A stretch of 64,000 nucleotides of DNA from Actinomucor elegans (taxonomy: Eukaryota > Mucoromycota > Mucoromycetes > Mucorales > Mucoraceae): positions 124,001 through 188,000 of the forward strand of contig JAMSLZ010000011.1 of assembly GCA_026027325.1 (NCBI GenBank), in the 5' to 3' direction. Every line of letters starts with the position of its first letter. The stretch's first letter is position 1. The notes beneath the pieces are model-generated. The model had not been told where the DNA came from, ran no database searches, and saw only the letters and a program-made list of their open reading frames with translations. Position numbers and translations under genes: made by a program. Below are positions 4,130 through 36,616 of the stretch, piece after piece.

Positions 4130-4530
4130 GAGCAACGTTAAAAATAAAAAAAATAAAAATTAGTTTTTAAATTAAATAGTGTTTTTTGTAATTATATTTT
4201 TTTTTGTTTAACACTTTTTTATTGTAATTTTTGAAAGTTTGGTAATTAACGTAAAAATAAGAAATTGCAATAATTATGCAAAACTTATAAAGATTAAACT
4301 TTTATATTACTTTTCAATACAATTAAACTTTTTTTTTTCATAATATTTCACACCAGATCGAAACCCTGTTGTGCGACAATTTTTTTCTTTTAAAATTGAT
4401 TAAAAAGCACGCCGTAAGTTTTTTAGCAACTTACAACTTGATAAATAAAGAAAGCTATATAATTTTAATTTAATAATATGAAAATAATTATAATATATAT
4501 ATTAATTATTAATGATATGTAATGTAGCTC
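4130..4530 (+). repeat. Left long direct repeat of element A
   Basis: It is 401 bp, AT-rich and non-coding, with a more GC-balanced core (ACACCAGATCGAAACCCTG). It differs from the right copy by two compensating 1-nt indels in homopolymer runs near the left end, so divergence is very low. Confidence 0.9.
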
Positions 4531-4672
4531 TTATATAAAAATTGCTCTTTGTTTTTGATTCATAGTATCAATTTTTATTTTTTTTTTGCCAAATGTTTGA
4601 ATGTTTAATATTAAAATAATTATAATTATAATCATTTCTGTAACATTAATTCAAACTCAATTACTTTTTTCT

Positions 4673-4685
4673 AAAAAATTGAATT
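4673..4685 (+). promoter_or_regulatory. AAAATTGAATT motif upstream of transposase A
   Basis: AAAAAATTGAATT ends 28 bp before the ATG at 4714. The same core sits 15-50 bp before the start of the transposases of B (27272-27284, minus strand), C (34552-34563), D (62948-62959) and Merlin 1 (50249-50260). Recurrence at this spacing in different families suggests an initiator or other core promoter element; this is inference. Confidence 0.45.
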
Positions 4686-4713
4686 ATTATATAAATAAAA
4701 ATAAGAACATCTT

Positions 4714-6165
4714 ATGACAATTGAAATAGAGGAACTATTAGAAAATGAATATGAAGAGATTAAAACAAATTATTGGAAATTTTTAGATAATACATATAAA
4801 TCTAATATTGAAAAACAATATCATAGAAGTAAAATAGGAAATTTTATTAACATTCAAAATATAAAAAAAGAATTATATGAACTATTAGGTGCAATTCCTA
4901 TATTTGTATTTTTAACAGAAATTTGTAGTAAAATTAAAATGCCATCACCAGTATATAATGTAGAAAAAGGAATTTTGATTTTAAAATTATTAGTAGATGG
5001 TTGTTCCATTAATGATATGAAAATTTATGATGAGAATGATTCTTTTTATAGAATTTATAAATCTGTTTTTATTGATAATATAGATTTTTTAGAAAATTGG
5101 GTTAATAATACGATGTTTTATTGTTTTAGCAACAGCATTACTAGATTATTATATAGTAAATTATACAATCCTAAAAATTTTGAACATTGTACATTACTTT
5201 TAGATGGAAGACATAATAGAATAGTAATTGAAGATATTGATTTAAATAAAAAAGATTTATATTCTTATAAATTAAAGAAAAATGCATTAAACACCCAATT
5301 TATTATAGATTCAGCAGGATATATCATCTATGTTTCAGAATCATTACCGTGTAAATTTAATAATGACGATAATATGTTTATTAATAATATAAATTTAATG
5401 AAATTTTTTAAACTAACAGATTGTTTATGCTATGATGGATTGTATGAAAATGTATTAGATGAAATTTTAAAAAAATATAATAATGTAGGATTACATATTA
5501 CAGAAAATAACTTTTGTTTTCCAATAAAAAAAGAAAAAAATATTGATTTAGATGTTGATGAATTAAATTTTAATAAACAATTAGGATCATATAGAAGTAC
5601 CATTGAAACTTTTTTTGCAAAATTTTCAAATATATTCAAAAGATTTAGCTACAAAGCCAATGCAAGAATTACAAAAGAAAAAACATATAACATTCAGATT
5701 AAATTAGCATTAGTTTTATTTAATATCAAAAACTTTGTAGAAAATAATAATATAGAAGAAAAATCTTATTATAAACTATGGATGGAAAAAGATTTTGATT
5801 TTTTTGATACTATTAAGGATTTTAATATCGAAACTAAATCAATAAAGGCGGTATATAAAAAAGAAAATATAATGAATATGAAAAGTTTACAGGATGATCT
5901 TCTAAATAAACTTTTATCTGATAATAATTTTAAAATCAGCTTAACTAAAAATAAAATGCAAATTGATAATGATGATAATAATACTAGTACTGATAAAAAT
6001 GTATATGAGATACAATATATAATACAACATAGAAAAATAAATAATGAATATGAATATGAGGTAAAATGGAGAAATTATAAAAAACAAGTAAACAGTTGGA
6101 TTAAAGAAAGTGACTTTCAAACAAAAGATATTCTAAAGAATTATTGGGATTCTATCAATGTCTAA
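4714..6165 (+). CDS. IS5/PIF-like DDE transposase with C-terminal chromodomain (element A)
   Basis: An intact 483-aa frame. The DDE core resembles the DDE_Tnp_4/HARBI1 group: LLLDGRHN (Asp about 164), the YSYKLKKN and ESLPCKFNNDD block, CYDGLYEN (Asp about 241) and YRSTIETFF (Glu about 298). An Asn/Asp-rich linker leads to a chromodomain from about aa 430 (YEIQYII, then YEVKWRNY and SWIKESDF). It would cut and rejoin the ends of its own element, with the chromodomain possibly steering insertion to methylated-histone chromatin. The stop codon lies directly against the right direct repeat, with no bases between. The start is supported by the conserved WKFL region near the N-terminus of copies B and D. 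Confidence 0.8.
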   Translation: MTIEIEELLENEYEEIKTNYWKFLDNTYKSNIEKQYHRSKIGNFINIQNIKKELYELLGAIPIFVFLTEICSKIKMPSPVYNVEKGILILKLLVDGCSINDMKIYDENDSFYRIYKSVFIDNIDFLENWVNNTMFYCFSNSITRLLYSKLYNPKNFEHCTLLLDGRHNRIVIEDIDLNKKDLYSYKLKKNALNTQFIIDSAGYIIYVSESLPCKFNNDDNMFINNINLMKFFKLTDCLCYDGLYENVLDEILKKYNNVGLHITENNFCFPIKKEKNIDLDVDELNFNKQLGSYRSTIETFFAKFSNIFKRFSYKANARITKEKTYNIQIKLALVLFNIKNFVENNNIEEKSYYKLWMEKDFDFFDTIKDFNIETKSIKAVYKKENIMNMKSLQDDLLNKLLSDNNFKISLTKNKMQIDNDDNNTSTDKNVYEIQYIIQHRKINNEYEYEVKWRNYKKQVNSWIKESDFQTKDILKNYWDSINV

Positions 6166-6566
6166 GAGCAACGTTAAAAATAAAAAAAAATAAAAATTAG
6201 TTTTTAAATTAAATAGTGTTTTTGTAATTATATTTTTTTTTGTTTAACACTTTTTTATTGTAATTTTTGAAAGTTTGGTAATTAACGTAAAAATAAGAAA
6301 TTGCAATAATTATGCAAAACTTATAAAGATTAAACTTTTATATTACTTTTCAATACAATTAAACTTTTTTTTTTCATAATATTTCACACCAGATCGAAAC
6401 CCTGTTGTGCGACAATTTTTTTCTTTTAAAATTGATTAAAAAGCACGCCGTAAGTTTTTTAGCAACTTACAACTTGATAAATAAAGAAAGCTATATAATT
6501 TTAATTTAATAATATGAAAATAATTATAATATATATATTAATTATTAATGATATGTAATGTAGCTC
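6166..6566 (+). repeat. Right long direct repeat of element A
   Basis: It is 401 bp in the same orientation as 4130-4530 and nearly identical to it. It starts on the base after the TAA stop of the transposase, so it must supply any 3' UTR and poly(A) signal. Confidence 0.9.
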
Positions 6567-7111
6567 TGTATAAGAGACTTTTCAACGAATAATAAACGCA
6601 TTTGAAAGACAATTGTTCAACATTATTTTTGACAAACGTTGAAATTAAACGTTTCTAGGAATTTACATAAAAGATCGTTGAAACGAAAAGCAGAGTTCAT
6701 TTTAGTAAATAAAATAAACGAGGATTATGTTGTTGCGTACAAGCATCAGAATTTCATGTACTCATTTATAAGAAGTTTGCAAGATTTGGCTTTCATTGGC
6801 AAAAGACAAGAATACATAAAAATTGTTTGCAAATAAAATGGAGTTCAGGCTTTTCTTTCTTATTGTCAATTTATGTTATAATATTGACTAAACCCATAAC
6901 ATTATTGTCTGCTTTCCACTAATATTAGGAGTAACCACTAATAAATGAGCAAAGCACTGTTAATTGCGCAGCCATAGAAAATAATTACTCTAATTTCATT
7001 GGTTCGCAGATTATTATTAGTAGGTAAATCTATAGTATTAGTAGGTAAATGATAATAAAATCGTCGCTTTACCACATAATATTATGGGTAGCACACAATA
7101 TTTTCGCCATA
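6567..7111. other. Unassigned non-coding stretch between element A and LINE fragment 1b
   Basis: The only frame is a basic 65-codon ORF at 6639-6836 with no recognised motif, so it is not called. There is a short palindrome (ACCACATAATATTATGGGT) near 7070. The origin of this DNA is not evident. Confidence 0.5.
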
Positions 7112-7925
7112 GTGCATGACTAGAATTGTCAGAATCACCATCACCACCATCAAAGAACAGAGCCACAGTCTTGTCCAGCAAAGCCAAGAACTCCGTGTCA
7201 TCGAGGAGTGTGGGATTAAACCGCCAACAACCTGGACCAATAGAGGCACGAGCAGGAAGAAGATCAACCGTCAAAAGACAGTGATCTGTCCACTTTGGGG
7301 GTACATATTGGACCAGAGCATTCACCAGGCGCGTAGCCAAAGACCGATGACCAAAGATGTAGTCAATGGTTGTGCCAGCTTGAGGGAAGGTAGCAGCCCC
7401 ATCCGGGAAGCAGTTGTCAAAATGAGTACATAGCCATTCATACCAAGGGAGCACGGCAGAATGACTAGTCTCGGCGGTAGTATGCAGGTGGATGTTGAAA
7501 TCACCTACCAACATCCAAGGCGTGTTGGACACCTCAGACCACAAAGCAAGAGAGAGAAAAGATTGTAGAAACAGTGGACGGTCCGAATTCTCAAAATTGA
7601 GGAGATTGAGCAAAAAAGTTTTTGAAATGTCGAAATTGGCGAATTGAGATGTCAAGATCGAGCGAGATGTAGAAGATGTTGGAGATTTGCAAAAATAATT
7701 ATACCACCAGAAGCGCAGCGACGAGTAGAAGACGAATACGAAACAAGCGGAGATGGATGGATTGAATTGAGCGAGATATCGACAAAAAACCAGACGGATG
7801 CAAAAATTTTTTGTAAAAAGTGATCTTTAAGCGAAAGAGCTTTCGACAAAAAACCAGACGGATGCAAAATTTTTTGTAAAAAGTGATCTTTAAGCGAAAG
7901 AGCCTGAAAAACAAGCGGAGATGGA
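7112..7925 (-). pseudogene. LINE fragment 1b: 5' UTR fused to interior of ORF2
   Basis: On the minus strand, LINE 5' UTR sequence (7586-7925) is joined directly to family 1 ORF2 sequence starting at the endonuclease stretch SDRPLFLQSF (7112-7585). All of ORF1 and about the first 127 codons of ORF2 are missing. The joint falls in a GAA shared by both parents, consistent with a microhomology deletion or template switch. The 5' UTR part carries a tandem duplication of about 65 bp (about 7785-7905, CAAAAAACCAGACGGATGCA in each copy). The 3' end stops at 7112, where unrelated sequence begins. Confidence 0.8.
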
Positions 7926-7978
7926 TTTTTTTTTTTTTTTTTTTTGTATGAAGTGTAACTTTATTAACAATTAGTATT

Positions 7979-13143: not shown

Positions 13144-14760
13144 CAGTAGTTTTACTGGCCGGTGCACAAAACTTTTAATTGCTATTACTCCGTCAATTTT
13201 TAAATTTAACCAGATCAAGTAATATTGAGCTATAGCTCTAACATACTGCATGAAAATACTAAATGTTTAGGCTAGGGTTTATGTTACGTCATAGTGATAA
13301 AATGATGATAAACCGTTTTTTCAGCTTTTAAAATTTGAGGGCTTTTCCGTTTTATGACGTAAATAGACCATAATCACTAATAATAATTCCGTTTATCTAT
13401 TGATACTAATGAAACATTGCCTATGGCAACGGAAAATTATATAAAGAAGCCTATTCTGATTCATTTCAGCCATTCTCCTTTCTTCTTTCTTGACCATACT
13501 TCGTTCTATATAATGCCTTATAAAATCTCTCATAACAAGCGCGACAGCATCAAATCACTGGTACTAAAACAGGAGCCAACCAGTATTATTGCGCAACATG
13601 TAGGAGTTTCAAAATGGACAGTAAACCGAATGAAAAACGAAATAGACCCAGAATACGTTCGACCTACCGGTGGTGGCCGTAGAATAGTGCCTCAACGTAT
13701 TATGGTAACACTGAAATACAAACTTCGAAGCGGATACTTAAGGAATGGTCGAGATGCACACAAATATTTAAACTCCCTCGGCTATTCAATCAGCTATAAT
13801 GGGACTATAAAGTTGATCCATCAAACTGGACTTAAGGCTTATATTATGAAAAAGCGACCATATACCAAGGTTGATTATATGAAGGATAGACTCCAATACG
13901 CCAGAAAATACCATGGTTGGACTGTTGAGCAATGGAAGAAAGTTGTATTTTCGGATGAAACGAAAATAAACATGTGGCAGTCTGATGGAGCTATTTATAC
14001 ATGGAACAAGAGCCAGGCCAGAGAGATCTTCCTCATAATACTCGTATGACCAAAAAGTTTGGTGGCGGAAGCCTAATGATATGGAGCTGTATGACATCAC
14101 GGGGAGTAGGCTACGCTAGTCAAGTACTACAGAAAACTATGGATTCAGACTGTTATATTGAAATCTTGGGTACATCGTTTAAGGGTACTTTGGACTACTA
14201 CGGCTGCAATCCTGATGATGTGATTCTTCAGCAAGATGGCGACTCAAAACATACATCCAAAGTAACTAAAAAATGGCTTAAAGCAAACAACATACAGTAT
14301 ATGAACAAGTGGCCACCATATAGCCCAGACTTAAATCCGATAGAACATCTATGGCATCATGTTAAGTCAAAACTAGGCCAATATGACACCCCTCCAAAAA
14401 CAAAGCAAGAACTATTCAAACGATTTGAGACGGAGTGGTACAAATTTACCAAAGCAGACATGGAGCCGTACTATAACAGTTTACCTAAAAAAATAGAGCA
14501 AGTCCTTAGAGCTAAAGGTGGCTATACTCGATATTAAAAGACAGCACCTTTAATTCTCTCAGCCAAAAAATTCCAAAATATAATTTTAGTAAAGTTTCCA
14601 AATGTAGTTACTATACAGTTCATGTTTAAATTTGGCATATATCATTTAAATATACCAACAAACACACATTTAAAGTTTGGGCTTACTCGAGTGACTGTAC
14701 GTTAAGAAACATTAAAAAAAGCAAATTTATATTTTTGTGCACCGGCCAGTGTAACTACTG
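13144..14760 (+). mobile_element. Tc1/mariner DNA transposon in LINE 1a ORF1
   Basis: A 1617-bp element flanked by TA duplications (13142-13143 and 14761-14762). Its terminal inverted repeats are about 28 bp and begin CAGTAG; the two ends differ at two positions (TTT versus TAC, before TGGCCGGTGCAC). The uninterrupted target is present in LINE 1c. Confidence 0.95.
13513..14537 (+). pseudogene. Tc1-like transposase with a single frameshift
   Basis: The start is taken at MPYKISHNK (13513), where the helix-turn-helix begins; an in-frame ATG at 13417 would add a 32-aa extension without motifs. The N-terminal part has a homeodomain-like HTH and the first catalytic Asp (FSDETKI, about aa 148). Near 14004-14015 the frame shifts by a 1-nt loss, ending at 14049 after WNKSQAREIFL. 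The other frame continues with KKFGGGSLMIW, QQDGDSKH (second Asp) and PDLNPIEHLWHH (Glu, 35 residues later). It is non-functional as it stands. Confidence 0.9.
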
Positions 14761-19383: not shown

Positions 19384-19615
19384 GACGGATATCTACAATT
19401 AATATATCTTTTAAATCTATTGTATATGTCCTATTTTTTTTTAATATATCCATATATTTTATAATTTATAACTTTTTTTCATGAATTAAAATTATTATTA
19501 AGTATAATAAACATTATCAAGAAGGCAACTGTTCCATTTTGCATGAAAAAGCAATATTATATTTATGCTTTCTCCTAATATACGTACCAAATTTATATGA
19601 AACAAGATGTCCGTC
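19384..19615 (-). repeat. Long direct repeat of element B, 3' side of the gene
   Basis: 232 bp, apparently identical to 27661-27892 and to the solo copy at 61104-61335 (opposite strand). It starts 21 bp beyond the transposase stop codon. Confidence 0.92.
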
Positions 19616-20899
19616 TTCTATAACATTTTAAATTAGTTACTTACTATTCCAATATATATTAATACAATCAAAACTATTAAATTTACTGTAATGTATCCAT
19701 GAATTATCCTCATCACTGTAGTTTTGCCATTTCACAAGGTAATAACTATCTTCGACTATTAACCCTTTATGATCCAAAATAGTTTCAATTTCATAACTTT
19801 CATTATTATCTATATCTATTTCCAAGTCCATTTTCTCATTATTATAAATATTATTATTTTTAAAATGAGCAATATTTGATAATTCTAATCCTAAAAATTG
19901 TTGCTGTAATAATTTCATTTTATCTAAATTGTTTATTCTTTCATTTAACTTTGGAAGTGATTTATAATTTTCATTATTATTCAAAATATCATTTTTGTAT
20001 TTAAAATCAAAGCTATCATTAATCCAATATGAATGAAAATCACTATGTTCTATATTGTTTAGTTTAATATATTTTTTTAAATTAAAAAGGACACATGCAA
20101 TTTTTAGTTGAATATTATATATATTTATATTAGTAGTTAAAAAAGGTTTTTTGTTATTTAATCTTTTAAAGATACATCCCAAATCTGAGAAAGTTTTTTC
20201 CATTTTAGACCGAAAACTTCCAAATTGATCGTTATAATTTATTTCAATTTCATTTAAGTTTATATTTTTATCTTTTCTGATAGGATATACGAAGTTATAG
20301 TCATTTAGATCAGAACTATTTATTATATTATCTACGTATAGGCTATATCCTCCATCTAATGCAATACAATCCATCAAATTTAGTTTATTTTCAATATTCA
20401 TATTTATAAGCATAGATCCATCATTATTAGTACTACATGGTTGACTGTCTGATACAAATAATACCATACCATTTGTATCTATTGCAACTTGTGTTCTAAA
20501 CCCATTTTTTTTAAGTTTGTAACTATAATATATGGATTTATCTTCTGCACCATATACCATACCTCTTTTATCATGGCCGTCTAAATGTATTGTTACTTGA
20601 TTAAACAAATCTGGATTCTCTATCATTCCATTTAAAAGTCTAATTTTTATATTTGAAAACATGTTTTGTAAAGAAAAACTTAAAATCTTATTTAATTTTA
20701 ACATTCTATCTGATGAATAAAATTGTCTGTATATTTGATGAAAAGTACTTTTTGATATATAATCATCCATATCTTCAATTGATATATTCTCTACTATAAA
20801 ATATAATATCAATAAGCCTTTTTCTATATTATTATATGGTCCTCTATAATCTCTATCTCCAAATAATATAACTAGGAAGAAATAAACAGGTATTATTCC

Positions 20900-21405
20900 T
20901 GTTGTAAAGGTGGTAGATAAAGATTTTGGAAGATAGAAATACTTTTAAAACTGTGGATAGTTTTTTATTAGAGATCAAGAATTGATTAACTGGTCAAAAG
21001 GTGATAAAACGCATCTCTTATATACTTTTTCTCGGTCGGTACTTGATTCTAAATTCATATTACGATTTGCCAGGAACAAGGTTGGACTGCGTATAAAGAA
21101 GACCAGGGATAATAACCAAATGAGCGGACCAAGATTAGCGGCGAGGAGTGTCGGGATCAATATATCCAAAGGTAATAGTATTGAATGTAATATTTGGTGT
21201 GAGAGATAGTATTTATCAATTAGCGTCTACTTGCTCAGAGTGATATATAAATAAAGATATTTTAACATAATCAAATACAGTCATTTACATTCTGGTTCTT
21301 GGTAATAATGCTTTATACACTTCTGCAGCTATATATAAGGATATCTATACGATTTTCTATCTGTACAGTATTCTCTTATTAATATAATTATGAGCGTTTA
21401 CAACA
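20900..21405 (-). repeat. 3' LTR of the chromovirus
   Basis: 506 bp; the same as the 5' LTR apart from one extra TA (CTATATATAAGG versus CTATATAAGG). A short inverted repeat of 9-10 bp closes both ends. Confidence 0.95.
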
Positions 21406-21588
21406 TTATCCTCCACCAGAATCAAACAAACTTGTATTGATTCGGCAAGTGCGTCAGTTCCACCAAATAGTACATTCATGCGGCTGAGTTTTGATTAACA
21501 CGCTCAGGTATACCTCCTTTTACGCACCAATTCAGGGTCTTTTCTTGCATCGTGGCTTTTCTTGGTTCTTGTTTCATAACTTGCCTAC

Positions 21589-24500
21589 TTATTCTATCTT
21601 TCTTTTCTTGTTTGAACGTCTATTCAGTATTCTCTCTTCTCTACTCGTAGTGGCTGCAATATTTGCTCTTTTGTTTTTCGACATCTCGATCGCTACATTT
21701 GACATCTCATTCCCATTGCATTTAGGAATCTTGGAAGTTCCAACTTTTTTGCGTCTGTTAGGTTCAGAGTTTTGAATTGACTGTTCGACTCTAGTTTGCT
21801 CTAAACGTCGTAATTCTCTTTGCTTATTCCAGTACCGTTGAATGATAGTTGGATCGGTGAAATCACTTGCTTTTTGCCAAGTATTTTCTTTCTCAGAATA
21901 ACCTTTCCACTTAATCAAGTATTCTCGATGACCTTCTTCACCTCGATGATCACGGATACCTTCGACTTCGTAGTATTCTTCTTCGATACTAGACTCATCC
22001 AGGGTAACTACTTTCAATTCCGACGGTACATAGTTTCGGGATAATAATTCATTCTGTTCATCCTTTAGTTCATACGATCCACCAGTATTTCTTCGAACAA
22101 CAGTGTAAGGTCCCTCATAAATCGGAGCTAACTTACTAGATCGATTCTGTAATCTGATCATGACATGCGTTCCAACTGGAATGTCGACAAGAACACTCTT
22201 TTGATTGAACTTTTTGTTATATTCCTCATTTATCTTCTGAGTTCTTTCGAGGATGGCTGGGAATACGATCTTATCCATGTAATCTACGCGTTCTTCCAAC
22301 TCTCGCATGGTCATAGACTCAATGGGTAGTTTGAACTTCTTCTCGTTCCCGTAGTCATCAGGTAAGTTGACTCTACGTGCAAACATCAAGGAGAAGGGAG
22401 AACTCATAGTTTTTGCTTTAATGTGTCGGTTCATGCAGAGCTGTATGATAGGAAGATAATACGCCCAACTATGACTGTCTGACTTCATCATTTTTCTTAA
22501 CGTGTTAGTTGCGGTACGAACTGCATTTTCCGCTGCTCCATTTGCTCGAGGATGATATGGCGTAGTGTATCTTCTATCAATTCCTAGGTTCTTCGAAATA
22601 CTGTTCATCACAGCATTCTTGAACTCTAGACCATTATCAGACTGGCAAATACGTGGAACACCAAAATCACCATAGACTTTGACCAACTCTTTTGCAACAG
22701 TATCGGATTGTTTGTTCTTCAGAGGTCTGAGAATAACGAATTTCGAACAAATATCTGTTATAACCAACATGTAAACATATCCTTCTTCAGTTACGTCAAA
22801 AGGTCCAGCCAAGTCGATAGCAATATGATCAAATGGTCGGTTGGCTACAACATTAGATAATGGGTGATAACCTCTCTTACTGATGTTGTGCTTTTGACAT
22901 TCAACACACGAACTAACAATGTCTTTTGCTTCTGCGTAGATATTCGCCCAATGGAGACCTTGTGAATGTAAATCTCGCACAATTGCTTGCGATCCAAAGT
23001 GTCCAAATGCATGCGCTTCTTTCAACAGAGCATCTCTCTCTTCTTCAGGAGGAGTCATATAGTCAGTCAGCTCATCTTTTCTTTCAACTAGTTTAGTCGC
23101 GAGTACGTTAATCGTTTTATCTCGGCTAAATCGCTTTTTTCTAATGATGGCTTTCTTTTTAGGGCTTCGTCTGATGATTTTGCTCGTAACACTATCCTCC
23201 ACCAGTTTGTTTTCATCTTCTAAAGGTGAATACAAACGGCTCAGAATATCAGGCAATTTGTTCAATATACCGGGGATGTGCACTACATCAAAATCAAAAT
23301 CCAGAAGAGTCTCGATCCATCCAATTAACATGGGATTTGCGATCTTTTGCGTATGTAAGTATACTAGTGCCTTGTGATCTGTAAATACAGTGAACTTTTT
23401 GCCCCATATATACTTGCGAAACTTCAGTAATGCTAACACGACTGCATACAATTCTCTTTTAGTAGTGCTCCAACGGCGTTGTGAAGGTGACAAGGAGCTC
23501 GATACAAATCCTATGTAAAGATCTTGGCCGGCCTCATTCTTTTGAAACAACACTGCCGCGACACCATAAAGTGATGCGTCTGTAGCTACGTAAAACTGTT
23601 TTGACAAATCCGGATAATGCAGCATCATCTTCGACTGCAAAATCTCTTTGATAGTTTCAAAGCTCTTAGTGTGACGATCGGTCCACAGCTCTTCCACATT
23701 CTCTGCATTCACTAAACTGGTGAGTGGTTCTGCTACTCTGGAAATCATCGGAACGAATTCTCTCAGGTAATTGACCAAACCCATAAATTGCTGGATGTGT
23801 TTCTTATTTTTATTTGGAAGTGGCCACTTTGAAACATTGGTAAGTTTTGATTGATCCACACGAACTCCTGAAGCGTCCACTACAAATCCCAACATACGAA
23901 CTGAATGTTGAAACCATGAACACTTGGATTCTTTCAGGATTAAATTTGCGGAATTTAATCTGTCAATCACAAACTTTACATCTTTTGCATGCTGTTCGAT
24001 ACTTTCACTGGCAACAATACAGTCATCCACGAAGTTCTGAACGCAATCAATACCTTCAAACAAGGTTGCCATGACCTTTTGAAATTGCGAGGTTAGCATT
24101 TTCACTCCAAAGCACGCTTTTTGAAAGGAAAAGCCATTGCCATTATAAGTAAACGATAACTTGTGTACATCCTCGGGTGCCACTTTGAATCGATGATATG
24201 CATTCGACAAATCCAAAGTTGTAAACACTTTTTTACCGGCCAAGTTATCAAAGATATCCTTAACCAAAGGTACGGGAAAATTGAATGTTGGAGGTAGAAT
24301 TTGATTCAACGATCTCACATCTAAACACGCTCTATGGCTCACAATCTCACCATCTTTGTTACGTTTAGGAACAAGCAGTAATGGACTGTTGAATGACGTG
24401 TTTACTCGGGATCGAATGATTGTACCTGTTTCCAACCATTCTTTTATTTGCTTATCGAGAACTGGTCTTAATGCATAAGGGATGGGGTATTGACGTCTAT

Positions 24501-26514
24501 ACGCCGTTGCACCCTCTTTCGTAGGTAATCGAACAATGGATTCAGGCAAAGGACATGAAGATGTTATGGGTATGCTCTGATTAATCTCTAGTGATTCTTT
24601 AATTATACTCATGAACTCTGCTCTTTGCTCAGGCGTACCAGCAGGCGAATTGTCAGGTTCATGTTTTCTTTCACGTTCAATGTTCAAGTTTTCAAAAATA
24701 GCTTCATCACTCAAGGCAGCGTCAGAATGTGCATGATCATCTTTGATGCGAAAAGCCACTCCAGTTAATCCGATATTCATTTTGGGAAGAATATCTGTGC
24801 CAAGAAGAATATCAAACTCGAATCCGTCGTTAAAGTTCATTACTTCAAATGAGTGTTTGAACTTAATGCCATTTGCATACTTTATTTCCAAAGGATCGGT
24901 GATACCAATTCTCTTTGCAGTATTTTGATGAGACAAGAAATTATAAGAACCAGGTAATTTATGTACTTTATTTATATGAAGTTTATTCTTCAAAGAAGAC
25001 AAACTAACAAAGCTACAACTACTTCCTGTATCTACGCGTCCCAGGAGACGTTCAGACTCTACAATCAACGGTGTACATAAATTAAATGCGTCATTAGCCT
25101 TTAATTTGTCACTCTTCTTGTTCTCATTCAGGTACTTACATTGATAGCTCTGATTCTCAATCTCGGAGTCGGCCATCTCCAAGTCCTCTTGAACTTGCTG
25201 CTCAATTGACTTCTCACTCGAGGAAGCCGCAGGCATCACAGCCAAGACAGTACTGCTACTACTGCTTTCAGCAGCACCACAACGATGACCAGGACGCCAT
25301 GGAGACACACCACAAGTCCAACACTCTTTACCCTTCGCCTTCTTCACAGAAGGAGGGCGTTCAGCTCTTCTCTTAGCGAGAAAACAATCCTTGGTGTCAT
25401 GGGTCGCATTGTTACCATGATGGATGCACGAAAAGGGTTTCGCCACCTTACTCGCCTTTTGCACCCGACGAGCTGCATTCTTGTGATGATGGTGATAGGG
25501 GGCCTTTTCTTTGCGTCGCTCAACAACAGGCGCACCAGGAAGAAGAGAAACAGCCTCATTATACGACGTATGGTCGTCACCAAGAATATCACGACCAATC
25601 TGTGCGATTTGATCGACAGTGTATTCAGCATTCTCACCAGAAGATCCAGCCTTCACTGAATTCATTGCAACTCTGATCAGCGTCTGAACAGGTTTAGTCA
25701 GCGAGGCCAAAAAACGATCAGCTACTCTAGGACACTCTCTAGGTAGGCCTGCATCAAACATTGCTGTTTGAAAACGCTTAGCATAGTCGCCCACCGACTC
25801 ATTGTTTTCCATTACCATGGTAAACACAAGGTCAGTATATCTTCTCAACACAAGGGAAGAACCGTGCTGCTTCTTAAACTCTCTACGAGCATCTGCCCAT
25901 AGGGTACAACCTCTACTCAGCTCATCTTTCACCCATGCTTTATCGCCATGGGGAAGGCAAAGGGGTAAGAAGTTCTTCCACACCTCATCAATGGACATGG
26001 AAGAAGACTCAACTACATCCTCAAATTCTCTCAAAAAATGCTCAACAGACTCGAAGGCTTCGTAACCTGGAAAAGGTTTGACAGCCGAGGTCAAGAGTTG
26101 GAACTTGGGCAAGTCGCGACGATTCAATGTCAAACCAGTAGGTGGCTTAACACGATCAACCTCACCGATCAATGAACTGCACTCTTGGATCTCACGGAGC
26201 ATCCTCTTGGAGCGTTCAAGGGCCAACAAGGCTTCATCAGCCGCTACGTCATCTCTGACTACACGAGCACGACTAAACGCTTGAAGGTATCGGGTAATAT
26301 CTGCACGGAGCCCGGCGATATTTGTGTCAATCAGTTGTGGGTCAGTCATGTCAGCAACAGCATGCTCAGCCGACTCAGACAACAAAGAACTAGCACCAGG
26401 AGACTTGATAAACTCATCAAGGTTGCTTGACAAGGTCGATTCATCAAACATGGGGGTGTCAGGGTTAACACCACAGTTGGCAGAAGAAGAACCAGAAACG
26501 TTGTTGGAAGCCAT
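21589..26514 (-). CDS. Chromovirus Gag-Pol polyprotein, single frame
   Basis: An intact 1641-aa frame. Order: Gag-like region with a variant zinc knuckle (CWTCG then PGHRC, about aa 398), protease (VDTGSS, about 492), reverse transcriptase with FVDD (about 826), RNase H (ATDASLYG, FTDHKAL), integrase with an HHCC region (HAFGHFGS, CVECQKH), catalytic core (IDLAGPF, QSDNGLEF, GAAENAV), and a chromodomain (about 1510-1565, YLIKWKGYSEKENTW). This order (PR-RT-RH-IN-chromodomain) defines chromoviruses. Gag and Pol share one frame, as in the Tf1/sushi group. The start codon is 45 bp inside the 5' LTR. Probably functional. Confidence 0.95.
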   Translation of the reverse strand: MASNNVSGSSSANCGVNPDTPMFDESTLSSNLDEFIKSPGASSLLSESAEHAVADMTDPQLIDTNIAGLRADITRYLQAFSRARVVRDDVAADEALLALERSKRMLREIQECSSLIGEVDRVKPPTGLTLNRRDLPKFQLLTSAVKPFPGYEAFESVEHFLREFEDVVESSSMSIDEVWKNFLPLCLPHGDKAWVKDELSRGCTLWADARREFKKQHGSSLVLRRYTDLVFTMVMENNESVGDYAKRFQTAMFDAGLPRECPRVADRFLASLTKPVQTLIRVAMNSVKAGSSGENAEYTVDQIAQIGRDILGDDHTSYNEAVSLLPGAPVVERRKEKAPYHHHHKNAARRVQKASKVAKPFSCIHHGNNATHDTKDCFLAKRRAERPPSVKKAKGKECWTCGVSPWRPGHRCGAAESSSSSTVLAVMPAASSSEKSIEQQVQEDLEMADSEIENQSYQCKYLNENKKSDKLKANDAFNLCTPLIVESERLLGRVDTGSSCSFVSLSSLKNKLHINKVHKLPGSYNFLSHQNTAKRIGITDPLEIKYANGIKFKHSFEVMNFNDGFEFDILLGTDILPKMNIGLTGVAFRIKDDHAHSDAALSDEAIFENLNIERERKHEPDNSPAGTPEQRAEFMSIIKESLEINQSIPITSSCPLPESIVRLPTKEGATAYRRQYPIPYALRPVLDKQIKEWLETGTIIRSRVNTSFNSPLLLVPKRNKDGEIVSHRACLDVRSLNQILPPTFNFPVPLVKDIFDNLAGKKVFTTLDLSNAYHRFKVAPEDVHKLSFTYNGNGFSFQKACFGVKMLTSQFQKVMATLFEGIDCVQNFVDDCIVASESIEQHAKDVKFVIDRLNSANLILKESKCSWFQHSVRMLGFVVDASGVRVDQSKLTNVSKWPLPNKNKKHIQQFMGLVNYLREFVPMISRVAEPLTSLVNAENVEELWTDRHTKSFETIKEILQSKMMLHYPDLSKQFYVATDASLYGVAAVLFQKNEAGQDLYIGFVSSSLSPSQRRWSTTKRELYAVVLALLKFRKYIWGKKFTVFTDHKALVYLHTQKIANPMLIGWIETLLDFDFDVVHIPGILNKLPDILSRLYSPLEDENKLVEDSVTSKIIRRSPKKKAIIRKKRFSRDKTINVLATKLVERKDELTDYMTPPEEERDALLKEAHAFGHFGSQAIVRDLHSQGLHWANIYAEAKDIVSSCVECQKHNISKRGYHPLSNVVANRPFDHIAIDLAGPFDVTEEGYVYMLVITDICSKFVILRPLKNKQSDTVAKELVKVYGDFGVPRICQSDNGLEFKNAVMNSISKNLGIDRRYTTPYHPRANGAAENAVRTATNTLRKMMKSDSHSWAYYLPIIQLCMNRHIKAKTMSSPFSLMFARRVNLPDDYGNEKKFKLPIESMTMRELEERVDYMDKIVFPAILERTQKINEEYNKKFNQKSVLVDIPVGTHVMIRLQNRSSKLAPIYEGPYTVVRRNTGGSYELKDEQNELLSRNYVPSELKVVTLDESSIEEEYYEVEGIRDHRGEEGHREYLIKWKGYSEKENTWQKASDFTDPTIIQRYWNKQRELRRLEQTRVEQSIQNSEPNRRKKVGTSKIPKCNGNEMSNVAIEMSKNKRANIAATTSREERILNRRSNKKRKIE

Positions 26515-26559
26515 ATCGATAAAAGTAAGGAAAATAGGACAGTAATTAAAAGTAAAAAA
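26515..26559 (-). promoter_or_regulatory. Chromovirus leader and presumed primer site
   Basis: The 45-bp leader starts TTTTTTACTTTTAATTACTG and lacks any TGG-type tRNA match. Its complement (CAGTAATTAAAAG) loosely resembles CAGTTAATCAA near the expected transcript start, which would fit Tf1-like self-priming. Weak evidence. Confidence 0.3.
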
Positions 26560-27063
26560 TGTTGTAAAGGTGGTAGATAAAGATTTTGGAAGATAGAAAT
26601 ACTTTTAAAACTGTGGATAGTTTTTTATTAGAGATCAAGAATTGATTAACTGGTCAAAAGGTGATAAAACGCATCTCTTATATACTTTTTCTCGGTCGGT
26701 ACTTGATTCTAAATTCATATTACGATTTGCCAGGAACAAGGTTGGACTGCGTATAAAGAAGACCAGGGATAATAACCAAATGAGCGGACCAAGATTAGCG
26801 GCGAGGAGTGTCGGGATCAATATATCCAAAGGTAATAGTATTGAATGTAATATTTGGTGTGAGAGATAGTATTTATCAATTAGCGTCTACTTGCTCAGAG
26901 TGATATATAAATAAAGATATTTTAACATAATCAAATACAGTCATTTACATTCTGGTTCTTGGTAATAATGCTTTATACACTTCTGCAGCTATATAAGGAT
27001 ATCTATACGATTTTCTATCTGTACAGTATTCTCTTATTAATATAATTATGAGCGTTTACAACA
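26560..27063 (-). repeat. 5' LTR of the chromovirus
   Basis: 504 bp. On the minus strand it contains TATATAAG near 26678-26685, a likely TATA box, which would place transcription start near 26650. Confidence 0.93.
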
Positions 27064-27278
27064 ATTCCTAACTTTTCTAATAAAATCTTTTTAATTTCTT
27101 TGATCTTTTTAATAGATATAATCTTTTTAGTGTGATATTTTTTTTGTTCAATCTCTGGCCAACCATAATTTAAAAATTTCCAATAATCATTTGTTAGAAT
27201 CTGATACTCCATTAATAAAGTATCCTTAACATTATTAATATTATCCATTTGTTCTTTTTTATATTGAGATAAATTCAA

Positions 27279-27660
27279 TTTTTTATAACTTAAAATAAAA
27301 TTAATAATAATATATATACATTATTATGTTTTAGAAAACATTTTTTATTTTGAAAAGTTTGAAGTAATTCTAAAATTTATTAATTTTATATTTTGCTTAG
27401 TCAGCAAAATTGTAAAATCAATTATTTTTTTTGAACTTTTTATTAATAGACAGATTTATAAATATTTTGTGTTACACAAAATATAATAAATCCTAATTGT
27501 TTTAAAGAAATAGAAAATATAAAAAGTTCACAAATTGTGAACATTTTTAATTTTCATGGAATGACAAACAAATTGATAATTTGAAAAGAATTGTAGTGTT
27601 AAGCTGATTTTATAATTCAGAATTTTATAGCAACAGAAACATTTCTCTATGGTTATAGTA
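27279..27660. other. 5' non-coding region of element B with palindromes
   Basis: AT-rich. It contains two perfect short palindromes (ATTTTGTGTTACACAAAAT near 27458 and GTTCACAAATTGTGAAC near 27526) and a block also found in element D (63499-63728) and partly in C (about 36150-36235). The block lies in the opposite orientation relative to the transposase gene here. Confidence 0.5.
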
Positions 27661-27892
27661 GACGGATATCTACAATTAATATATCTTTTAAATCTATTGT
27701 ATATGTCCTATTTTTTTTTAATATATCCATATATTTTATAATTTATAACTTTTTTTCATGAATTAAAATTATTATTAAGTATAATAAACATTATCAAGAA
27801 GGCAACTGTTCCATTTTGCATGAAAAAGCAATATTATATTTATGCTTTCTCCTAATATACGTACCAAATTTATATGAAACAAGATGTCCGTC
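27661..27892 (-). repeat. Long direct repeat of element B, 5' side of the gene
   Basis: 232 bp, same orientation as 19384-19615 and apparently identical to it. Confidence 0.92.
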
Positions 27893-29802: not shown

Positions 29803-29850
29803 CCAGACAGATTTCTTGAAATTGGCGAGATTGAGAAAAAAGTTTTTGAG
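29803..29850. other. Spacer between head-to-head LINEs 2a and 2b
   Basis: 48 bp, itself LINE 5' UTR-like (TTGAAATTGGCGAGATTGAG) and oriented like copy 1a. It carries the right-hand copy of the 13-bp duplication of 2a. Confidence 0.7.
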
Positions 29851-30112
29851 AAGCTCTTTCGCTTAAAGATCACTTTTTACAAAAAATTTTGCATCCGTCT
29901 GGTTTTTTGTCCATATCTCGCTCAATTCAATCCATCCATCTCCGCTTGTTTCGTATTCGTCTTCTACTCGTCGCTGCGCTTCTGGTGGTATAATTATTTT
30001 TGCAAATCTCCAACATCTTCTACATTTCGCTCGATCTTGACATCTCAATTCGCCAATTTCGACATTTCAAAAACTTTTTTCTCAATCTCGCCAATTTCAA
30101 GAAATCTGGCAC

Positions 30113-31600
30113 ATGACTGAAAATTCTTCCGTGTCCTGGACGACTGTTGTTGCCCGTGGTGCCTCTAAGAAGGTTCCATTGACTCCTGGTCGACGTAATG
30201 TCGACAATGCTGCTGTTCCTCTTATTGGTGAGGTCATCTTTGAAGATGATGACCTCAAGTCCGAACTTTTGGTGCGCAAAGCCGCTGCTCTGGTGGAGCA
30301 GGCGCTTTGCTCAAGTTCTGTTCTGTTCTCCTTCCCTGGGAAGCTGTTTGGTGACCGCACTGGTGCCTATAAGGTCATAGAAGAACAAATTGGTACTAAC
30401 GTGGATTTTAGACACATTAGTTCCATGCGCGCAAATGCTGGTGGTGACCTTCTTGTTGAAGCCAATTTTGACGCTAAGGATGATGCTACCAAGGCCGTTA
30501 ATGATGGTGTTGTTGTCAACGGTGTGGTGTACAAGGCTGTATCGACTTCTACTGGTTCTGGCTCTGGCTCTTCTGTGGGTGGTAATCTGACCCAAGTTCA
30601 GTTTAATTTGGTGTGTTGTACTCCGAACAGAGCTACCTTTTTGGTGGACATGTTGGATTCTTTGGCCTTCTATGGTAAGGTATACCAGTTGAAGAAGTAT
30701 ACCCACAAAGGCTATTTCGAGGGAAAGATGTCGGTGCTCATTGATACGTCGGTAGGCATGGAAGGTGAGGATGGTGAGGTGGTTCCTCCTCAGCCTTTGA
30801 CAAGAATGCTGTACCTGAGTGCTTGGGACATGTTTGCCCCTGCCCAGTTCAAGAATGCGCCCCCTGTTTGTCACTTTTGTCGCTTGTCAGGACATGTTCG
30901 TAAGGACTGTCCTGAGTTGGCTAAGCGTACGTGTTTCTCTTGTCGCGAGAAAGGCCATACGGCTAGGTTCTGCAAGGTTAAGAAACAAGCAGTGAAGTCT
31001 TTCGAGGCTGAACTGGACGATTATGTGGCTTTGTCTGGTGCAAAGAAATCTGGCCTTGATCCTACGCCAAAAGATGATGTTGTAGTTGTTGAAGAGGCTC
31101 CCATTGAACTGGTTGAGCAGGATGGCGATTCTGAGCCCTTGGTTGGTGTCTCTGGTGGTATCTCTGGTGTTGTCTCTGGTGTCTCTGGTGGTGTCTCTGG
31201 TGGTGTCTCTGGTGGTGTCTCTGGTGGTGTCTCTGGTGGTGTCTCTGGTGGTGTCTCTGGTGGTGTCTCCGGTGGTGTTCCTGGTGATGACTCAATCATT
31301 GAAGTCATGGAGCTCGATGGTGAGGGTGATCCTCTGCTCTCTGGCGAGAGAGTAGAGTACGATCCCAACAGTCCTACTGGTGCTCGAGCTTCCAAGTTTG
31401 CTGACTACGAGGTTGCCTCAACTATGAAGGTTGATACGGTGCAAGAGATGATGGATTTGAGTAAAGTCAAGGTCAAAACTCAAAACAAGATTGACTTTCT
31501 CAAGAAGAATATTGTGAATGTGGCGAAGACCAAGGCTTCTGCTTCTGCTATCAAGACGTCCAAGTCTTCCAAGTCTTCTTCTTCTGCCCATAGGGTATAA
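30113..31600 (+). CDS. LINE 2b ORF1, CCHC protein
   Basis: Intact, 495 aa. Two zinc knuckles at about aa 252-285, followed by an almost perfect 12-bp DNA repeat coding for Gly-Val-Ser-Gly units (about 31150-31285), more homogeneous than in 2a or 2d. It ends AHRV with the stop overlapping the ORF2 ATG (31598-31602). Confidence 0.92.
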   Translation: MTENSSVSWTTVVARGASKKVPLTPGRRNVDNAAVPLIGEVIFEDDDLKSELLVRKAAALVEQALCSSSVLFSFPGKLFGDRTGAYKVIEEQIGTNVDFRHISSMRANAGGDLLVEANFDAKDDATKAVNDGVVVNGVVYKAVSTSTGSGSGSSVGGNLTQVQFNLVCCTPNRATFLVDMLDSLAFYGKVYQLKKYTHKGYFEGKMSVLIDTSVGMEGEDGEVVPPQPLTRMLYLSAWDMFAPAQFKNAPPVCHFCRLSGHVRKDCPELAKRTCFSCREKGHTARFCKVKKQAVKSFEAELDDYVALSGAKKSGLDPTPKDDVVVVEEAPIELVEQDGDSEPLVGVSGGISGVVSGVSGGVSGGVSGGVSGGVSGGVSGGVSGGVSGGVPGDDSIIEVMELDGEGDPLLSGERVEYDPNSPTGARASKFADYEVASTMKVDTVQEMMDLSKVKVKTQNKIDFLKKNIVNVAKTKASASAIKTSKSSKSSSSAHRV

Positions 31601-34217
31601 TGCTAGGTCAAAACATTCGATTGGGTTCCTTAAATGTGCGTAGCATTTTTATGGAGTCCCAAAAAACAACACAAAAGGAGTTCGCTTCTTACCTACGCGC
31701 TCGTTCTCTCGGTGTGGATATCCTTTGCTTGCAAGAGGTATCTCACTTCTATTCTCAATCTTCTCTCACTGATCATCAAATCCGCTCTTTCTCTTTCTTC
31801 TTTCCTCGCTGTCCCTTTGTGGTGTCCAAACATTGTGCCATTGTCTGCCTCAAGCCTGGTCTTTCTTTGGATGCTACACAAGTTCTCCTGGATGAGCGTT
31901 GTGTTGTGGCTACTGTCAAGGATGCCCAGCATAATGTCTTGTGTCGTGTTGCCAATATCTATGCACCGGCACAGTCTTCGGACCGTCCACTGTTTATACA
32001 ATCTTTTCTCTCTCTTGCTTTGTGGTCTGAGGTGTCCAACACGCCTTGGATGTTGGTAGGTGACTTCAACATTCATCTGCACTCTTCTGCCGAGACAAGT
32101 CTTTCCTCTGTGGCTCCGCTGTATGATTGGCTTCGTCTCCACTTTAACAACTGTTTCCCGGACGGTCCTATTACTTTTCCTAGGGCTGGTACTACTATTG
32201 ATTATATCTTTGGTCATACTTCGCTGGTGACTCGGTTGGTGAATGGTCAAGTCCATTATGTTCCTGGTGTGTGGACCGATCACTGTCTTTTGACAATCGA
32301 TCTGCAGCCTGCTTGTGCTCGTATTGGTCCTGGCTGTTGGCGCTTTAATCCCACTCTGCTGGAGGATTCAGAGTTTCTCCTATTGCTGGACAAGACGGTG
32401 TCTCTCTTTTTCGAATCTTCTGGTGGTGATGGTGACAATGCTAGCTCTGGTGGTAAGGGTGAACCTTTGAGGGTCCAATCTCAATGGGAATCTTTCAAGT
32501 TGTTGCTCAAGTGCTGTGCGCAAAAGTACGCTTGGGGTGCTAAGGCTCGATTCAAGAACAAGGTTGCTGCTTTACAACAGGAACGTATGAAGGCTGCTTC
32601 CTCTTCTGTCTCAGGTATTATGGCTAGTGATGCTACACCGTCAATTCAACCTAGTGATGATTCACTTCCTCTTCAGGTGGTGCATGAGCTAGAGAAATTG
32701 ATTGATGGTCAGATTCAGAAAGAAACACGCCAGAATATGCTTCGCTCTGCCACTCGTTGGCATGAACTGGGTGAACGTAACAACAAGTATTTCTATCGTG
32801 TCATCAAGGATCGCCAGTCTCAACAGACAATCCAGTCCTTGAAGTGCTCTACTACTGGTGAGGTCTTGGTGGAAGCGGCTGATATACTTCGGGAGGCTCG
32901 CGGTTTTTACCAAAAGCTATACACCCCGGACGACATCGATGCCGAAGCCGTGGACTCTCTTTGAATGGTATTCCTGAAGAAGTGGTGTTGTCTTCGGATG
33001 ATGCCAAGTATCTGATGGCTCTGCCTAATGCCGTTACGGTGCTGGATCTACTGGCTCACGCCCCTAGGTCTCGGTCTCCTGGCATGGATGGTATTCCTTT
33101 CGAGGTATATCATTACTTGGCTGGTCGTTCGCGACCATTTCTGGACTTGCTGGTGGCAGTCCTTGGTGGTGCTTTCTCTGGTGTGTTTCCTCCTTCGTGG
33201 CAACAAACTCGGATGGTGCTTTTGTTCAAGAAAGGTGATCCTCTGCTCTTGGCTAACTGGCGTCCTCTCTCTCTGATCAACTCGGATGCCAAGTTGTTTA
33301 CCAAGTTGCTGGCCAATAGGTTCAACCGTGTTCTTCCCAAGCTGATCAACCGCTATCAAACTGGGTTCCTTCCTCATCGATTGATCTCGGATAATGGGTG
33401 GTTGAATCAAACGTTGATGGCTAATCTTCGGTCGGTGGCTCCAAACCTTCCTCAAGTTGCGGTGTTACTTGATCAAGAGAAGGCTTATGATCGGGTCCAT
33501 CCTGAGTATCTTCGTCGTGTGTTGCTTCGTTTTGGTTTTCCTTCTGGTCTGGTTGGTTGTCTCTCTTCTTTGTTCTTTGGTACCAAGATCTCCGTGTCCA
33601 TTAACGGGTGGTTAGGAGCAGCTGTTCCTCAGTTGCGTGGCCTTAGGCAGGGTGATCCACTATCGCCTCTGTTGTTCAACTTGGCTTTTGAACCCCTGTT
33701 GCGGTCTGTCTTGGCTTGTTCTTCTCTGTCTGGTGTTTCTCTGGCTCCTGTGGTGGTTCCTCGGACTTGGCTCCCTAACCCTCAAAAGGTCCATCTTGAT
33801 TTGGGTGATGATACGGGTAACTACCCGCTTGATTTTGTCAGTGGTTCTTCTCCTCCGGCTCCTATCAAGCTTCTCAGTTATGCCGATGATCTCGAGGTGT
33901 TCTTGTCTTCGCCTGGTGAATGGTTGGTGCTTCTGTCTCTTCTTGAGGTCTATGGTCGTGCCTCCAACGCCAAGGTGAATCTCAGCAAGACTGTTCTGGT
34001 GTCTCTTTCGGGTGTGGCTCATCAGCCTTGGGTTGATATAGCTTCTGCTGCTGGTGTAGAGTGGCATGATTCGTCGTCTGTTGGCTCGGTGCGTTACCTT
34101 GGTTATCCACTGTATCATACCGATGCTCAGTTGCTGCATTTCCTGGATGGTGTCAAAGTCAAGTTGGAGAGGCATGCAAACATGCTTCGTGAACGACACC
34201 TGTCTATACGTGGTACT

Positions 34218-34456
34218 GAGAAACGACCTAAATCATTTAAAATATTAAAACTAAATCAATATATCATTGTTAAGGACTAACACTTCATTTTTTGGATTAA
34301 AGAAAACCTTTTTATCTATTTTTTTGTTTTAAATATATGTTATAAATAATATATTATAAGATTTGAAGATAATAAAATATTTAAATATAAAAAATTAAAT
34401 AAATAAAAAAAAGGACTAAATTATTTTTAGATTAAAAACAAATAGAAACGTTTCTC
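34218..34456 (+). repeat. Left long direct repeat of element C
   Basis: 239 bp, apparently identical to 36378-36616; unrelated in sequence to the repeats of A and B. Confidence 0.92.
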
Positions 34457-34598
34457 TTAGAATCTATAATATAATACCATCACACTTAATTGCGCTGAGG
34501 GTTCAGTATTTTTAGATAACAAAATAAAATTATCCTACATACTTTTTTTATAAAAATTGAATTATGACATATATATAAAATGATTATTTATGATAAAT

Positions 34599-36043
34599 AT
34601 GAAAGATACAAATATCCAAAGTTTATTAGAAGGTGAATTTAAGAAAATATATGAATCTTATTGGATAAATATTTTAAAAAAAGATTATGGAATAATAAAA
34701 AATAAAAATACCATAGAACAGTAATTACTGATATATCAAATATTAAAAAAATTAAAGAAATTTTAATACAAAAGTTAGGATATATTCCGATTTATGTTTT
34801 TTTAACAAGTTTTTGTAATAATTATTATTTTCCTGGGCCCCATAATAATATAGATAAAATATTATTAGTATTATATCAGTTAATAGAAGGATACTCAACC
34901 CATCAGATGAATGATTTTATAAATGATACAACTTATTACAGAATATATGAAAAGTTATATATAAAACAAGAAAAAGAATTAGATAATTGGATAAATGATA
35001 TGTATAAAAATTATTTTTCAAATTTAAATATAAGATTATTAACAAGTTATATAAAAAATCCTGAATTATTAAAACAATGTACACTAATAATGGATGGTCA
35101 TCATAATAAAATTACATATGAAAATATTGATTTTGAGAAAAAGGATCTATACAGTTGGAAACTTAAAAAAAATGGATTAAACACACAAATTGTAATAGAT
35201 AACAATAATATGGTTTTATATGTGTCTGACAGTTTACCCTGTAAAAACAATAATGACGATGTAATGTTTATGAATAATGTAAAATTAAATACATTTATTA
35301 AATATGGTGATTGTTTATGCTTTGATGGATTATATACTAATACATTAGATGCAGTTATTAGCAAATATAATAATATAGAATTTAATATTAATGAGGATAA
35401 TTTTATTTTTCCTATTAAAAAAGAAAAGAATATAGACTTAAATATTGATGAACTTACATTTAATGATCAATTATCAGGATATAGGTCTAAGATAGAAACA
35501 TTTTTTTCAGAAATATCAAAAACATTTAAAAGATTTGACCCTCATAAAAATATTAGAGTAACTAAGCTTAAGACTTATAATTTACAATTAAAATTAGCGT
35601 GTTTATTGTTAAATATTAAAAAATTTATAGAATTAGGGAGTATTGAACCAAATACTTTACATAAAAGATGGATTGATGATAACTTTGACTTTCCAGAAGA
35701 AAAAATAAATATCACATCTAATACTGTTTCATATAAATTGGAAAACATAAAGAGAATTAGAAATTTTCAAAATGATTTGTTTTTAAAATTAAAAATTGAT
35801 AATAATAATGAAAATTCAAATAATAATATAATTGAAATAGATAATGACATATGTATGGAACAAGATAACGATAGCGATTTTTATGAAGTATCATATATTA
35901 TAAAACATAGAACTAATACAGATAGTAGTATAGATTATTTTGTAAAATGGAAAGGATATAACAAAAATAAGAATTCTTGGGTAAAAGAAGTAGATTTTAC
36001 TGATAAAGAAAAAATAAATTTATATTGGAGTACTTTAAAATAA
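34599..36043 (+). pseudogene. DDE-chromodomain transposase of element C, one frameshift
   Basis: It starts at the ATG at 34599 (MKDTNIQSLLEGEF), 35 bp after an AAAAATTGAATT motif. A 1-nt loss in the A-rich stretch at 34695-34711 ends that frame after NTIEQ; the other frame continues KYHRTVITDISN and is open to 36043. Motifs: IMDGHHNKI, YSWKLKKNG, DSLPCKNNNDD, CFDGLYTN, YRSKIETFF and a C-terminal chromodomain (YEVSYII, YFVKWKGY, SWVKEVDF). The catalytic core is complete; only the N-terminal DNA-binding part is out of frame. Confidence 0.85.
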
Positions 36044-36377
36044 TTCTAAATATTAATAATAAATATAAGACATTGATAATTAACTGTAAAGCAGTAATAG
36101 ACATATAAATTAAGATTTATATTTTATTATTTTTATTAATTTTTTAAAGTTTGTGTAACAATAATGATCACGTAATCTTAATTACTAATCAATTATTTGA
36201 GCTCACAAACATTAATCGTTTTAAAAAGAAAATATAGAAACAATATTAAGATATTTTTATTATTTTCTGTAAAAAAAAACAATTAAAAGAAAAGAAAAAC
36301 ATAAATATTTGTAATTAATTCTTGATTATACAATTTTTATTGTTTTTTAAGGAAATGATATATTCGACATAAGATAA
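36044..36377. other. 3' non-coding part of element C
   Basis: 334 bp of AT-rich sequence without a frame. About 36150-36235 resembles the block seen in B and D (GTGTAACA, then CATTAATCGTTTTAAAAAGA). Confidence 0.5.
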
Positions 36378-36616
36378 GAGAAACGACCTAAATCATTTAA
36401 AATATTAAAACTAAATCAATATATCATTGTTAAGGACTAACACTTCATTTTTTGGATTAAAGAAAACCTTTTTATCTATTTTTTTGTTTTAAATATATGT
36501 TATAAATAATATATTATAAGATTTGAAGATAATAAAATATTTAAATATAAAAAATTAAATAAATAAAAAAAAGGACTAAATTATTTTTAGATTAAAAACA
36601 AATAGAAACGTTTCTC
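36378..36616 (+). repeat. Right long direct repeat of element C
   Basis: 239 bp, same orientation as the left copy, ending at the ACT duplication. Confidence 0.92.

Follow-up and report, generated by a model that had tools for sequence, protein, structure and literature searches.

PIF/Harbinger transposons prefer TWA target sites and employ a second, Myb-like protein. Here we describe Harbinger/IS5-like transposons built on another plan, with a transposase gene between two long direct repeats, from a 64,000-nucleotide stretch of Actinomucor elegans DNA (hereafter the window; assembly GCA_026027325.1, contig JAMSLZ010000011.1, positions 124,001 to 188,000 of the forward strand). The nearest described plan is that of KolobokP, an element of animals placed in the Kolobok superfamily and published in 2022 (PMC9587614). 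KolobokP is presented there as unlike any other DNA transposon, with two long terminal direct repeats (LTDRs) around an internal region (INT), and it also occurs as solos, as dimers or multimers and in non-autonomous forms. Its authors give a C/DxxH motif between the second D and the E of its transposase and a target of 3–4 or 4–5 bp (that of Kolobok being TTAA), propose that a His-Me finger endonuclease encoded in the internal region counterbalances its loss, and weigh both solo mobility and circles (PMC9587614).

The A. elegans elements are a second, separate case of the plan with another transposase type. A previous first-pass annotation of the window knew of no described superfamily with this form, but the form was already present in KolobokP, albeit in another superfamily; no second published case beyond KolobokP appeared in listings of open-licence papers (Repbase and Dfam were not searched). 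The elements form a real and abundant group which, judging by the sameness of its copies, has been active recently. We consider it fairly likely that they are Harbinger/IS5-like transposons of the DDE_Tnp_4 type with composite-like ends, in which both the unit and the solo repeat are mobile and the repeats are homogenised by recombination.

Anatomy of the elements in the window

Elements A, B and C each possess two direct repeats of equal length flanking a gene for a transposase with DDE_Tnp_4 domain and chromodomain, and a 3-bp duplication lies outside the whole unit only. Element A (4130..6566, plus strand, duplication TGT) is complete with an INT of 1635 bp between LTDRs of 401 bp (left 4130..4530, right 6166..6566; 99.5% identity), the right one beginning directly after the stop codon of an intact plus-strand transposase gene (4714..6165) whose product of 483 amino acids (aa) has DDE_Tnp_4 at residues 164–337 and a C-terminal chromodomain at 431–479. 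Element C (34218..36616, plus strand, duplication ACT) has LTDRs of 239 bp with 100% identity (left 34218..34456, right 36378..36616) and a plus-strand transposase gene of 378 aa counted from the first ATG (34907..36043); the open frame measures 445 in this copy and 486, 486 and 291 in the other three copies of C.

Element B (19384..27892, minus strand, duplication TGA) has LTDRs of 232 bp with 100% identity at its low-coordinate (19384..19615) and high-coordinate (27661..27892) ends. A B copy without interruption measures 2340 bp, and the window copy reaches 8.5 kb because a Ty3/gypsy retrotransposon with chromodomain, separate from our finding, is nested within it (20901..27063, minus strand, direct terminal repeats of ~505 bp, 6-bp overlap at the target, one frame of 1641 aa). 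The C-terminal 377 aa of the B transposase, including both domains, are encoded at 19637..20770 (minus strand), while the sequence for its N terminus is found on the far side of the Ty3 element. On contig C21, a further B copy spans 1 base more than the window copy, but with the insertion at another point.

Every repeat is bounded by short inverted ends of its own, GAGCAACGTT/AATGTAGCTC in A, GACGGATATC/GATGTCCGTC in B and GAGAAACG/CGTTTCTC in C. The first-pass annotation had proposed these boundaries, repeat lengths, duplications and inverted ends, and had read repeat, gene and repeat as one mobile unit with a DDE transposase and chromodomain; our analysis agrees on every one of these points. 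It had also pointed to the empty sites of B and C in other copies of a long interspersed nuclear element (LINE), where the joined flanks of B indeed align to unbroken LINE copies of the window (at 31455–32054, for example, with 98.8% identity across 600 bp) and those of C do so in two places with 99% across 600 bp. The window showed no empty site for A. Many LINE copies of two types lie between 7000 and 63000, with an open reading frame (ORF) 1 carrying zinc knuckles and an ORF2 of ~1350 aa where whole, and they are the landing ground for the transposons.

Two further elements add to those first listed. A solo B LTDR with 100% identity to B and duplication CTT lies within a LINE ORF2 (61104..61335, plus strand), its empty site being present in other LINE copies. 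The first part of element D (62668..64000, plus strand), with a left LTDR of 82% identity to that of B (62668..62899, plus strand), runs past the window to contig position C3:188908. The D copy read holds gene fragments only, yet 16 paired copies exist, and D therefore probably moved in trans.

DDE_Tnp_4 was matched above the Pfam cut-off in A, B and C (E-values of 2e-9 to 1.8e-10), and together with Chromo it was the only family over the cut-off in these proteins, which gave neither reverse transcriptase nor retroviral integrase at that threshold. Residues D164, D241 and E298 of the A transposase are invariant across 22 aligned proteins, and Y/W/Y is present in the chromodomains of A, B and C.

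Copy forms, target sites and relatives in the genome

The genome (36.5 Mb, 27 contigs) was surveyed by pattern and DNA searches for repeat ends, using one-end patterns with at most two mismatches for B and for two relatives, F4 and F7, at most three mismatches for A, 8 matches of C and the best 40 of 108 candidates for D; this census misses truncated and old copies. Flanks were read for all 202 repeat copies of A to D (A 95, B 59, C 8 and D 40), from the window and from fetched loci, and these copies resolve into 139 loci. Family A accounts for 20 full, 53 solo and 2 incomplete loci, B for 22 full, 12 solo and 3 incomplete, C for 4 that are all full, and D, within its best 40 of 108 candidates, for 15 full, 7 solo and 1 dimer.

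An outer 3-bp duplication was present at 54/61 full, 64/72 solo, 1/1 dimer and 0/5 incomplete loci. Merging loci with common flanks left 60 full copies (54 with the duplication), 60 solos (53), 1 dimer (1) and 5 incomplete copies (0). As controls, flanks of different insertions agreed in 4.65% of comparisons, and a duplication around one repeat of a paired unit, which the first-pass annotation had named as a sign of chance pairing, was found in only 1 of 125 cases. The many paired copies with outer-only duplications which that annotation anticipated are thus present, but solos with duplications of their own are about as common. Spacing between neighbouring repeats was fixed genome-wide at 2034–2038 bp in A (20 pairs), 2104–2108 bp in B (19), 2159–2162 bp in C (4) and 2008–2011 bp in D (16 intervals), and the inner junctions of units were constant. 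The D dimer with its outer duplication and a triple of F4 identified by spacing show that recombination occurs between repeats.

The target consensus over 108 sites was Y-WWW-R around the 3-bp duplication, with TAA or TTA at 10 of them, and was much alike in solos and full copies, which therefore probably depend on one type of enzyme. Loci were clustered, with 92/139 lying <20 kb from a neighbour where chance would give 19.6. Of 137 loci on 21 contigs of known length, 59 were <60 kb from the end of a contig, a zone that makes up 7.7% of the length; both counts include segmental duplicates. This clustering could reflect targeting by the chromodomain, and removal from gene-rich regions fits it equally. 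A solo A repeat with duplication TCT recurs with identical flanks near the ends of contigs C4, C10, C12, C15, C22, C24, C26 and C27 (on C12 the right flank only is identical) and is a subterminal segmental duplication. A full B (C4:172161) and a solo B (C11:338097) occupy the same position of two flanks of 85% similarity with duplications of their own (CAA and CTA), and are probably independent insertions at one preferred site.

DDE_Tnp_4 gave 131 matches genome-wide (150/157 candidates scored) in several groups of equal score, and five additional groups were each sampled by reading a single copy. Paired repeats with an outer duplication were found in F2 (292 bp, 99.7% identity, ATA), F4 (221 bp, 100%, ATA) and F7 (223 bp, 98.7%, CTT). 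By spacing only, with flanks not read, 96 repeat ends of F4 formed 34 pairs, 1 triple and 25 singles and 11 of F7 formed 4 pairs and 3 singles. The F3 copy (C5:18720–21100, locus L201) has its DDE/chromodomain gene between inverted in place of direct repeats, of 218 bp, with more inverted segments adjoining, and no repeat was detected within 4.25 kb of the F1 copy. The paired-repeat plan is thus common among these DDE_Tnp_4 relatives, though probably not shared by all of them; its label changes twice on their tree, which is compatible with either gain or loss. Altogether seven families carry the plan, at about 200 repeat-bearing loci (139 of A to D, 60 of F4 and 7 of F7, the last two by spacing).

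Solo repeats, concerted evolution and mode of movement

Under the reading that we favour, a repeat of ~220–400 bp, itself bounded by short inverted termini (5'-GA...TC-3'), would form each transposon end. The transposase encoded between the repeats, acting in cis or in trans, would attach the two outer termini of a pair to a Y-WWW-R target cut with a stagger, so that the whole unit moves and a 3-bp duplication results. The two termini of a single repeat would also be usable, allowing the repeat to move alone in the manner of a miniature inverted-repeat transposable element (MITE). Recombination between repeats would convert the pair faster than mutation, keeping the ends identical and also yielding solos and dimers, and insertion is probably guided by the chromodomain towards chromatin that is methylated and rich in repeats.

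Mobility of the solo repeat is suggested by the haplotypes of A, counted over unique loci with solos included only where a duplication was present. Solo to full ratios were 11:0 for CGGG, 12:9 for CGGA and 0:10 for TAAG (Fisher's test against CGGA, p = 0.013 for CGGG and 0.004 for TAAG, for classes picked after the data were seen). CGGG is one substitution away from CGGA, and solos of both classes are near-uniform (mean 0.17 and 0.15 substitutions within class, respectively), therefore age is a poor explanation of the solo to full contrast. The difference between CGGG and TAAG suggests two mobile units, with solo repeats multiplying by themselves, and as solos and full copies that have a duplication are nearly equal in number (53 and 54 unique loci in A to D) the repeat may be a mobile unit in its own right.

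Several observations weigh against this reading. Four further A haplotypes exist as solos only (TAAA 7, TAGA 4, CAGA 2 and TGGA 1), which fits the decay of older full copies. Freedom from substitutions relative to the nearest full consensus was the rule among repeats of full copies (39/40 in A, 42/44 in B and 30/30 in D) and less frequent among solos (12/53, 4/12 and 4/7, respectively); the solos thus look older on average than full copies, again fitting decay by recombination. A clean loss of one repeat, which single-repeat excision should leave in some cases, was not seen among the A to D loci, and four of the five incomplete copies proved to be truncated or disrupted by a nested insertion (the remaining one lies at the start of a contig and allowed no judgement). 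Finally, conversion as the homogenising process was not seen directly.

These points can alternatively be interpreted as whole units moving by cut-and-paste, with all solos arising as recombination deletions, as in solo long terminal repeats (LTRs), and with a repeat that is never mobile alone. Greater divergence of solos in A, B and D, the solo-only state of the four minor A haplotypes, the unequal recombination evident in the dimer and triple and the absence of precise loss of one repeat all agree with such a model, which does not accommodate 11 near-identical, independent CGGG solos with zero full copies beside a class at 12:9 only one substitution away. We regard it as unlikely in this exclusive form; solos probably arise both through recombination deletions and through movement of the repeat alone.

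The repeats within an element evolve in concert. With length differences in A/T runs, seen in many pairs, set aside as error-prone, 19/20 A, 20/22 B, 4/4 C and 15/15 D elements showed no substitution between their own repeats, and the right repeat was truncated or diverged in the two B exceptions. Left/right pairing in A was tighter than in all 5000 shuffles, a test that was uninformative for B, C and D, whose copies are too alike. At four single-nucleotide polymorphisms (SNPs) the A elements split 10:10, and left and right repeats agreed in 20/20 apart from one alignment gap. Repeats of B and D differ by 18% while each family is uniform within, and uniform repeats inside elements of diverged families mean that both repeats of a lineage change together. 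The first-pass annotation had offered homogenisation or youth as the source of this identity, and both contribute.

Identity could also arise at insertion, if a repeat were duplicated each time from a one-repeat circle in an LTR-like life cycle without RNA or reverse transcription. Recombination between the repeats would excise such a circle and leave a solo with its duplication behind; transposase would then nick both repeat ends on opposite strands and link the two 3' ends to target DNA, the repeat would be copied as the gaps are filled, and hence both ends would be identical by birth. This scheme accounts for identity within elements, the SNP concordance of 20/20 in A, the duplications found around solos, their confinement to the outside of paired units and the absence of single-repeat insertions of the gene. 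If every solo were the by-product of a full copy, however, young all-solo (11:0) and all-full (0:10) haplotypes would be unexpected. One T-run of A, moreover, is shorter by one on the left repeat in six elements and never the reverse, which hints at the inheritance of two distinct repeats but carries little weight, run lengths being error-prone and the two-sided sign test (~0.03) uncorrected with several runs looked at. We know of no DDE element for which such a cycle has been observed, and we hold it to be improbable; pair identity seems more likely to stem from recombination than from copying during insertion.

Relation to described systems and significance

Similarity to LTR retrotransposons extends to the outline, the solo repeats and the identical ends, whereas the DDE_Tnp_4 gene, GA...TC ends, 3-bp duplication and lack of a reverse transcriptase domain in the encoded protein set the A. 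elegans elements apart. A non-autonomous or unusual LTR retrotransposon served by reverse transcriptase in trans would be in keeping with that outline and with a chromodomain-bearing Ty3 element in the same genome, but the same four differences, together with the 6-bp target overlap of the Ty3 copy in B, make RNA-mediated movement very improbable, although no formal scan for a primer-binding site or purine tract was made. Chance MITE pairs around a transposase gene, as repeats with inverted ends that also occur alone with duplications might suggest, are refuted by the fixed spacing in each family counted, the constant inner junctions, the outer duplications at 54/60 full loci and the single individual duplication in 125, and retain next to no probability.

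Our comparison with KolobokP showed a common plan of an internal region between LTDRs with their own short inverted ends, a duplication outside the unit, solos and multimers with target duplications (here 53/60 unique solos and the single D dimer), non-autonomous derivatives and inferred solo mobility. The differences lie in LTDR length (~220–400 bp here against ~450 or 660 bp), the added chromodomain, the rarity of multimers (1 dimer in 139 loci) and the host group. The C/DxxH motif was found in 0/24 proteins, and the W-rich 3-bp target, Y-WWW-R at 108 sites, is not the TTAA of Kolobok. No second ORF of 150 aa was present in the INT of A, where the transposase gene takes up 1452 of 1635 bp, or of C (other families were not checked), and no His-Me endonuclease gene was seen in either, although no profile search for an endonuclease was made. 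With the motif and target absent and no endonuclease gene seen, these elements are not KolobokP, though they work like it.

With PIF/Harbinger and IS5-like elements they share the DDE_Tnp_4 domain, short inverted ends and the 3-bp duplication (54/60 full and 53/60 solo loci). They differ from PIF/Harbinger in the long direct repeats, the chromodomain, the single gene seen and the target, which is WWW, with TAA or TTA at 10/108 sites, instead of the TWA known for Harbinger. Nor was a gene for the second, Myb-like protein seen, as the INTs of A and C lack a further ORF of 150 aa (no search for one elsewhere in the genome was made). Since the domain and duplication agree while TWA and a second protein were not found, we name the elements Harbinger/IS5-like and do not file them as Harbinger. 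Bacterial composite and IS26-type pseudo-composite transposons likewise carry a middle segment between two mobile end units, but here the transposase gene lies between the end units and not inside them; possible one-unit circles, discussed in PMC9587614, are a further likeness.

Elsewhere in the window, the 218-aa frame at 50309–50965 gave no Pfam match above the cut-off. We presume that it resembles the start of an IS1595/ISXO2-type transposase, and we take two overlapping frames at 13423–14537 to be a Tc1-like transposase remnant.

The A. elegans elements separate the paired-direct-repeat plan from the Kolobok lineage, since here the plan is combined with a different type of transposase and, within what was checked, no endonuclease was seen beside it. 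They pose the question of how a DNA transposon keeps two separate ends identical, and homogenisation becomes testable in a single genome that holds seven families with the plan and relatives that lack it, along with solos, a dimer and a broken-gene derivative. For annotation pipelines these elements mimic LTR elements, and their chromodomain invites comparison with chromoviruses in respect of chromatin targeting. Should the circle scheme prove true, they would represent a DNA transposon that evolved an LTR life cycle without reverse transcription.

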